From Amphibalanus amphitrite (lineage: Eukaryota > Arthropoda > Thecostraca > Balanomorpha > Balanidae), in NCBI RefSeq assembly GCF_019059575.1, contig NW_024882207.1:186001-250000 (forward strand): a stretch of 64,000 bases of DNA, read 5' to 3'. The position numbers and the translations under genes are program-made. Every line of letters begins with the position of its first letter. The stretch's first letter is position 1. The notes below the pieces were generated by a model that was given only the letters and a program-made list of their open reading frames with translations, ran no database searches and was not told the DNA's origin. Shown piece by piece: positions 15,001 to 18,000 of the stretch.

Positions 15001-18000
15001 AGTCGAACCATCCTTCCTGGCACAGCAAGAAACCCAGCAGCCTATCCTTTCAAAACCCAACAACACCTAGCATCCATTCCCGCCCGCTAAAGCACTTAAC
15101 TCCTCTGATTACACGCCACAGCCCACCCCGCCACCCCACCCCGTCCGTCACTGCACCGACCTGGCGATAACCATGAACTGGTCGATCTGTCGGTCGGGTA
15201 GGTCGTGGTTGGGCGTCCAGACGAGCGTCTCCAGGTCCTCGGATCGGCGCGGGTCGGGCTCGCCGGGCGGCCGCAGTGTCGCCACTGACATGTCCGCCTG
15301 GTATTTGCCGCCGACGCGGATCTCGCCCTTGTCGGCGAGCAGCGTCTTCTGCTGAGGGTCGTACACTAGCGAGTAGAAGAAACAGTTCTGGAACGGAGCA
15401 CAGCATGTCAGACACATGTGCATTCAACGGCGGCAGAGGGTTAGGAGGTAGGCACTTCGAAGGAGAATGGGGCAAGGAGAACACAGCACCGATATTTAAG
15501 CAGCATGTTGCTCAAAGGAGGACAGCATCGGTTGGCAGTAAAGCGTCCTTAGCTCTATAATCGTTTTGGTTAGAGGTGTCTTTCTAACCAGCAAACCGTG
15601 TCAGGTCTCGGTGTTTGTGGGTCACTTCCAAGTGCAATAAAGGCAATGAGCGGCACTGAAAATCCAACAAAACGCGTAATGACCTCCCGTAGATCTCTGA
15701 CCGGCCCATAAAGCCCTTAACTCTGCCCAGTGATAGCTCAGCGCAGTGTTCCCGACCTTCGCTTATATGGCCCACAACACTTCCTGGTGAGTTAACATTG
15801 CCTCTGCCTTATCTCAATTCAACGAACAACCATTTCTTCCTGTGGCTCTGCCAATGCTCGCCAGTGTCATTTCCAATGCCTTTGTCGTTCAAACTCACCT
15901 TTCTGCCTGTATAGCTCTCTCAATCCTCACCCCTCTGACTATGTAGCTCTCCCGTCTCTCACCTCTCTGCCTGTGTAGTGTGTGGCTCTCCTGTGAAGCT
16001 CTCCCCGTATCCCACATATCTGCCTGTATAGATTTCGGGACTCTCACCTCTCTGCCTAGTGCCTGTGTAGCTCTCCTGTGTAGCTCTCCCCGACTCTTAT
16101 CTCTGCATGTATAGCTCCCCACAACTCACCTCTCTGTCTGTGTAGCTCTCCCCGTCCCTCACCTCTCTGCCTGCCTAGTGTATAGCTCTCTCAATCCTCA
16201 CCTCTCTGCCTGTGTAGCTCTCAGGACTCTCACCTCTCTGCATGTATAGCTCTCACTATTTCTTACCTCTCTGCCTGTGTAGCTCTCGGGACTCTCTGTC
16301 TCGTTGAGCAGTGTGACGGAGCATTTGCCGCGGATGTGGGTGGCCGGCAGCGTTTCCACCTGCCGTGACAGGAACAGCTCGCGCTGGTTGAGCAGGTGAC
16401 GCTGGAGCGCCGCGTCTGACTCGCCGCCCTCGCGGTCTCCGCCGGCGCCACTGCCACTGCCGCTGCCGCTGCCACCCTCCTCCTCTAAGGCACCTGGATG
16501 GACAGGAGAGATAGGTTAGAGGCTGACACTGGTGTAGACGGACACTGATGTAGACACTGGTGGCCGTCAGACAAAGCCGAAAAGCAGCTCTAGTGTGCGA
16601 ATAATGGCCAAACCGTCGACACACGTTTTCGAACATATTTATGGGTTAACTCAAAAGGATATCAAACCGTAATTTTTCGTGATTGGTAGTTGCTAATGGC
16701 GATACAGAATATAACATGTTACAGATAATGTGAGTAATATTTTAAACTCTCACATTTTAAACCTTCACCTTTTTATGTATTTTATGAATATGGCGAGTGT
16801 CTGCTCTAATGTCTCGTTTTATTCTGTCGTTCCATGAGTGTGCTATCTTGTATTGACGCAAATCCCGAAAAGCCATCATGTGGACGGATTTTAGATGAAT
16901 ACATACATACATACATACATACATACATACATACATACATACATACATACATACAATATATCGAACAGAGGGGTGGAGGGCTTAGCCAGCCAAGGCTAAG
17001 CGAACGTGGGGTGAAAGCCTGGACCAGTTTTGAGCTAGTCATAGGGGTGCGATGAAGGCTCTACCGGCGTATGCATGGAAGAAGATCGGAATACATTATC
17101 ACGGGGCACACAGCAGTGATGACACAACGTTGCAGAATCTCGTAGTAGTGCATTGGGGTTTCATGGCACACCTGTGGTAGAGATTCTACCACCACTAACC
17201 ATATACGCCGCAGGACTCAGTCAAGAGTCCTACAGACTGTCGCTATGCCCCATTCCTCCATGCCTACTCTGCTACGACACCGATGACCCTCCCTGACGTC
17301 ACACTGACACTATGTTGGTAAGCAGAGGCGGATCCAGCTCAGAGTTTTTTGGGGGCAAACCATAACAATTTATAGATTCTTTCCATGCCTCGTCCATAGG
17401 CGTAATGTTAAAATTATGCCGTTTGGGAGGGGCAAATGCCCATTTTGCCCCCTCCCCCCCCTGGATCCGCCATTGTTGGTAAGACACCTCCCGAGGAACT
17501 CTCCATCAGCCGTTGGCCAGCCGCTGCAGCACGGCTGGCCGGACGGCCCAAGGACCGCTGAAAACCAGCCCCACTCATTCCGAGATACTCTGTTTTCGGA
17601 AAGTGATGCGATCAGACCATGCGAGCAGCCCGATAACCCACGAAGTCGAAGCCGCATACCGTTGGCCGTTGCTACAATGTCTTACAGAGGACCAATAAAC
17701 AAGCTTCATAGCTGAAGTTAGGATGCTGGAGATGATGGTAAAATGTTTCAGTTGCTCCCAACGTTACTCGGAAGTTATCGGTGAGACGAGAAAGCGATGC
17801 AGGCCGCTGCCATAGAGTACGACGCAGAGGGCGCCACCTGTGCAACCTGATCGGCCGCACCTTTCACAGCAGGCGGGCGGTATCACTACCGCTGTTGGGT
17901 ACGGCAGCGATGGGTTCAATGGGTCCGACCGGGAGGCCTCGGTCGGGCCGCCCGTGACATACGGAGGGGTGGGTCGGGAACAGGGTCCACCTGACGGAAG

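Follow-up and report, generated by a model that had tools for sequence, protein, structure and literature searches.

Tandem repeats that extend across exon-intron boundaries have been given the name mirages in amphioxus, where AG/GT is found in many of their copies (PMC3087553). Among the cases described there, the mirage of Adh3 is composed of 10-72 bp units and displays somatic instability, that of BflGb6 involves units of 150-160 bp on the acceptor side (six in one haplotype and three in the other), and that of BflGb9 has a unit of 157 bp on the donor side; the Adh3 data and RT-PCR of the globin genes suggest that regular splicing is undisturbed by these repeats (PMC3087553). Further amphioxus mirages are reported for PGBD5 and troponin C (PMC3902484). 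Related situations are reported for the human genome: IFI6 (6-16) uses two downstream repeat units as splice donors, giving rise to three mRNA species (PMC4526556, citing Turri 1995), while human segmental duplicates contain internal tandem repeats (mean unit length 30 bp) whose copy number varies and some of which lie at exon-intron boundaries (PMC2812944). Intronic repeats are also described in an earthworm metallothionein (PMC12783039). No arthropod case of a splice-junction minisatellite was among the papers listed in searches of the open-licence literature (8 of 1,157 and 8 of 857 papers in two of them).

The present work concerns such a repeat in the barnacle Amphibalanus amphitrite, located in a window of 64,000 nucleotides (the whole stretch of DNA that was analysed) and first pointed out by a sequence-only reading. 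That reading had called minisatellites seeded on a splice junction rarely described, which is fair, although the class already bears a name and includes several reported cases (PMC3087553, PMC3902484).

The exon 4 boundary of the MTA gene and its intronic copies

The host is an MTA gene on the minus strand of the window. Its exon 4 (16267-16493), a coding part of the BAH domain, lies in a region that matches the Pfam BAH family (PF01426, 2.3e-14), and exons 4 and 5, joined at donor 16266, align without gaps across the junction to human MTA1 chain 7ao8_D (E 8e-34, with a query that carried one Gly too many). By homology, exon 4 belongs to the MTA BAH region related to MTA1, and the gapless alignment, taken together with the Pfam match, supports a conserved donor at 16266. 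Intron 4 (15388-16266, minus strand) is in phase 0 and ends at the acceptor TTCCAG/AACTG; exon 5 (15161-15387, minus strand) follows, its donor CAG/GTCGGT at 15160 being placed by homology. This last donor is unusual, and the first seven letters of intron 5, GTCGGTG (15160-15154), are also the first seven of exon 6 (14642-14636), which may be chance.

Immediately beyond exon 4, at 16263-15896 on the minus strand, intron 4 contains ten diverged copies of the exon end and its 5' splice site, at the place where the sequence-only reading had put an array. The exon end and donor are repeated as it had claimed, but the unit is larger than the last 21 nt of the exon: it measures approximately 32 nt, of which 29 nt are the end of exon 4 and 3 nt the start of the intron (GTG in the copies). 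Unit length is 31-39 nt in eight of the intronic units; the other two (51 and 53 nt) carry a partial internal duplication. The source unit u0 (16264-16295), identical in the second copy of the locus described below, consists of these 29 exon nucleotides and GTA, and contains the true donor GAG/GTAAGA at 16266. It is followed on the same strand by u1 (16231-16263, 33 nt), with donor GAG/GTGAGA at 16233; u2 (16199-16230, 32 nt), with GAG/GTGAGG at 16201; u3 (16160-16198, 39 nt including a 7-nt insert), with GAG/GTGAGG at 16162; and u4 (16127-16159, 33 nt), with GAG/GTGAGT at 16129. The next three units are u5 (16096-16126, 31 nt), whose donor is lost and reads AAGAGT in the ungapped table, u6 (16045-16095, the 51-nt unit), with GAG/GTGAGA at 16047, and u7 (16013-16044, 32 nt), with the degenerate donor TAT/GTGGGA at 16015. 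The array is completed by u8 (15960-16012, the 53-nt unit), with GAG/GTGAGA at 15962, u9 (15928-15959, 32 nt), with GGG/GTGAGG at 15930, and u10 (15896-15927), whose donor AAG/GTGAGT at 15898 has the top score in the intron. Unique intron sequence continues directly from u10, which for this reason may be a remnant of the ancestral intron start, an idea that the GTGAGG donor of a paralog would also fit.

Pairwise identity among the 11 units (u0 and the ten intronic ones, gap columns set aside) ranges from 52 to 97%. In local alignments the exon-end unit scores 63 within the array, against a best score elsewhere in the window of 21 (coding strand) or 26 (opposite strand), and no more than 28 was reached when the intron was shuffled 200 times under a first-order Markov model. 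Exon 4 is also the sole splice site with such copies among the six donors and five acceptor-side places tested for this gene in the window: the five other donors have self-copy scores of 18, 18, 14 and 18 (over the next 900 nt) and 12 (over the next 430 nt), as compared to 60 for exon 4, and the five acceptor-side places score 13-20, with no unit copies (the exon 9 acceptor having been placed 2 nt off).

Conservation within the unit is uneven. The 21-nt exon-derived core shows 18 mismatches in 210 cells, as opposed to 25 in 72 for the strongly variable stretch of about 8 nt that lies 5' of it, a difference with a Fisher p of 6.6e-7 in a test whose cells are not independent, as the units share descent. 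We do not regard the better-kept core as proof of selection, since this contrast would also result if every duplication event created its junctions afresh. A two-unit, higher-order alternation of TAC and TAT in the core holds for 9 of 10 steps (with the mixed u8 scored as C) and is reached in 0.023 of shuffles, a weak, post hoc observation. The candidacy of the region as a structured RNA element was rejected: nothing in Rfam matched positions 15300-16600 at thresholds up to E 1, and shuffled versions of the array fold better than the array itself.

The age of the intron can be approached through an MTA-like paralog present on two contigs, C254 and C1021 (a single difference in 3141 nt between the two loci), which has 55% identity to the window gene in both matched exons. 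Its intron interrupts the same codon in phase 0 (..YLEKE/NSFYY..), behind a GAG/GTGAGG donor, and it shows no repeat of its own exon end (self-score 14). A paralog that has the same intron and lacks the array indicates that the repeats formed in an intron that already existed; on this comparison intron 4 is older than the array, unless an array once present in the paralog has been lost.

Donor strength, reading frame and donor-bearing repeats elsewhere

Nine of the ten intronic units retain GT at the donor site, and eight retain GTGAG, in line with the earlier description of most units as donor-bearing. On a splice-site table entered by hand, eight of the ten also score at least 80; these range from 83.0 to 98.6 (90.5 for the donor at 16233), as compared to 91.2 for the true donor, so that the proposed decoys are of about equal predicted strength. 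Duplex energies with U1 behave likewise: the eight strong decoys lie between -9.7 and -10.3 kcal/mol, and the true donor at -9.6 kcal/mol. A weaker GT within u1, at 16256 (score 72.5), would shift the frame.

The consequences for the reading frame are as the sequence-only reading had described them. Use of donor 16233, 33 nt on, would add 11 residues in an open frame, the only such case among the unit donors, whereas donor 16201 shifts the frame and leads to a stop in exon 5, and all donors beyond it lie behind an in-frame stop situated 22 codons past exon 4. This includes the donors at 16047 and 15930, whose distance from the true donor is a multiple of 3.

Strong donors within a repeat are not unique to the MTA array. 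A tandem-array control (period 15-150, at least 2.5 copies) covering 262,569 bases, in which kinase loci served as control sequence, identified 20 arrays, of which four rows correspond to the MTA array in its two copies and 16 to others. Two of these 16 have at least three donors scoring at least 80 on one strand, namely L010 (3 in 511 nt) and L049 (12); seeding on a coding exon end was noticed for the MTA array, the other 16 being compared by donor count alone. L049:86-225, on the minus strand near a kinase gene, is an AGGT-type simple repeat whose 12 donor-like sites make it donor-rich without exon seeding.

Other features of the window include a very long AG microsatellite of 116 copies (11286-11518) and an array of 6.3 copies of a 135-bp unit (60133-60978). 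The latter adjoins the second of two minus-strand genes (55302-56909 and 58029-59267) that we take to encode UDP-glucuronosyltransferase-like proteins. From residue 155 to residue 535 these share 91% identity; residues 1-154 of one of them have no second match within the window. An open frame at 4555-6996, presumably of the cullin family, comprises 813 codons without introns and is possibly a retrogene.

A second copy of the locus

A search of the animal's own genome (807.55 Mb, 2644 contigs, with very common words skipped) matched a related array on one other contig, C321; in viral and prokaryotic collections, from which records near the window's genome were possibly excluded, no relatives were found. 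Positions 463239-537508 of C321 are collinear with 1512-49996 of the window, in blocks of at least 250 nt with 84.8-99.2% identity, separated by large insertions and deletions and accompanied by a few repeat-type matches off the line. For window 49997-64000, no block of at least 250 nt was detected in the C321 stretches compared (to 546800).

On C321 the 29 nt that end exon 4 and the GTAAGA that follows are the same as in the window, and seven intronic units are present instead of ten, u5, u6 and u7 being absent; array length differs between the two copies of the locus. The first two C321 units have diverged from their counterparts (c1 59% identical to u1, c2 82% to u2), while c3-c7 are 94-100% identical to u3, u4, u8, u9 and u10. 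GT is kept in seven of seven C321 units and six score at least 80, with 82.1 for the first decoy and 78.6 for the second. Exon 4 contains a second variable repeat, a Gly-Ser stretch at window 16441-16475, which is two residues longer on C321 and has Ser/Ala differences.

C321 is probably the other haplotype, the alternative being a segmental duplicate, because, for two families used as a comparison, many of the matches fall, as judged by eye, into pairs of the same or nearly the same score located on different contigs. Allelic contigs and high diversity, which have been described for barnacle assemblies (PMC8270832), would fit this assignment. The genome as a whole contains at least 150 matches to the cuticle-protein family Chitin_bind_4 (150 of 705 candidates scored). 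Expansion of this family is a mark of arthropods.

Neutral minisatellite or splicing element

We consider it quite probable that the array is a neutral, length-variable minisatellite of the mirage type, and that use of the donor 33 nt downstream is minor at most. Its history would begin with the tandem duplication of a segment of about 32 nt across the exon 4/intron 4 boundary, after which units would have been gained, lost and internally duplicated on the intron side. The upstream, exonic copy would be fixed by coding constraint, and the adjoining true donor GAG/GTAAGA would remain the one in use. The downstream donors would be by-products of duplication: all except the first would yield frameshifts or stops, and hence non-productive transcripts, while the first, used to a small extent if at all, would lengthen the protein by 11 residues that are not conserved. 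Array length would vary as in other minisatellites. Donor choice, neutrality and the allelic status of C321 are what we infer in this account, and the well-kept core and the strength of eight of the ten donors would speak against plain neutrality, under which even decay would be expected.

An unlikely alternative, for which IFI6 sets a precedent with its two downstream repeat units used as donors (PMC4526556), is that 16233 is used regularly and yields an isoform of MTA whose BAH domain is 11 residues longer. The near-equal predicted strength of this donor and the true one, and the fact that the extension is open in both copies of the locus, favor the isoform that the sequence-only reading had imagined; the peptide itself, however, is not conserved. 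Eleven of 33 nt and six of 11 residues differ between the window and C321 (where the peptide reads VRVWESYADIG), and the C321 counterpart of the donor is weaker, at 82.1. Over the 230 nt that begin with exon 5, the two copies show four differences; the far greater divergence of the extension would be unexpected for an insert under selection, and argues against a conserved isoform. Moreover, the insert would fall into the BAH segment that aligns gaplessly to human MTA1.

Very unlikely, in our judgment, is a regulatory decoy array, whose cores and donors would bind U1 and splicing factors and thereby tune the definition of exon 4 or shield the intron from early polyadenylation. Some weight is left on a regulatory reading mainly because the core is kept far better than the stretch that precedes it. 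Sense donors scoring at least 80 are also dense, with eight in 341 nt of the array (23.5 per kb) compared to 1.63 per kb across the window (both strands, array included), and the array RNA folds worse than each of 100 shuffles (z +2.47). These points are countered by C321, which does without three units and has its two nearest donors weakened (82.1 and 78.6), by the paralog, which dispenses with the array altogether, and by L049, where high donor density arises in a simple AGGT-type repeat. There is a slim chance that the array is instead a length-polymorphic splicing rheostat, in which exon-like modules (a purine-rich 21-nt core with its donor) would compete for U1, so that array length would tune the amount of functional MTA mRNA between haplotypes and the first repeat would supply a variable BAH insert.

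The units carry AG/GT, and in fission yeast, genes that contain several 24-bp AGGT duplicates have introns across them (cited in PMC4974935); nevertheless, a remnant of intron gain through tandem duplication of an AGGT segment (the Rogers model) is most improbable and was rejected, as the acceptor TTCCAG/AACTG is not a repeat copy and the paralog shares the intron, its position and its phase without repeats. Repeats are prone to assembly error and the exact number of units may be wrong, but an array that is itself an artifact is scarcely credible given the 52-97% identity among its units and a related array at the same place on C321.

The array among known splice-junction repeats

Introns that arise from AGGT duplication, as discussed in PMC4974935, resemble the MTA array in their duplicated AG/GT segments; the array, however, lengthens an existing intron, and its acceptor is not duplicated. 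Human segmental duplicates likewise present variable-number minisatellites at exon-intron boundaries, but they are recent paralogs in which transcripts support the changed structures (PMC2812944). IFI6 shares with the barnacle locus a set of repeats downstream of an exon that supply several splice donors, while most extensions in the MTA array break the frame and its donors are predicted from sequence.

The closest likeness is with amphioxus, where minisatellite-like copies span exon-intron boundaries, many of them with AG/GT, and where unit number differs between BflGb6 haplotypes, as it would for the MTA array should C321 be the other haplotype. The MTA unit spans such a boundary, and many, although not all, of its copies keep their splice signals; by this anatomy the array belongs to the known mirage class. 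Normal splicing has been suggested for the Adh3 and globin mirages. The MTA array offers a natural test of how the spliceosome would pick one donor among nine of similar score at spacings of approximately 32-85 nt, and its two lengths can be compared. Splice-junction minisatellites are thus not peculiar to amphioxus, and the interest of the present one lies in its clean anatomy, its arthropod host and its two natural lengths; it differs from the amphioxus mirages in its host and in its gene, MTA, and lies on the donor side, as in BflGb9, and not on the acceptor side, as in BflGb6.
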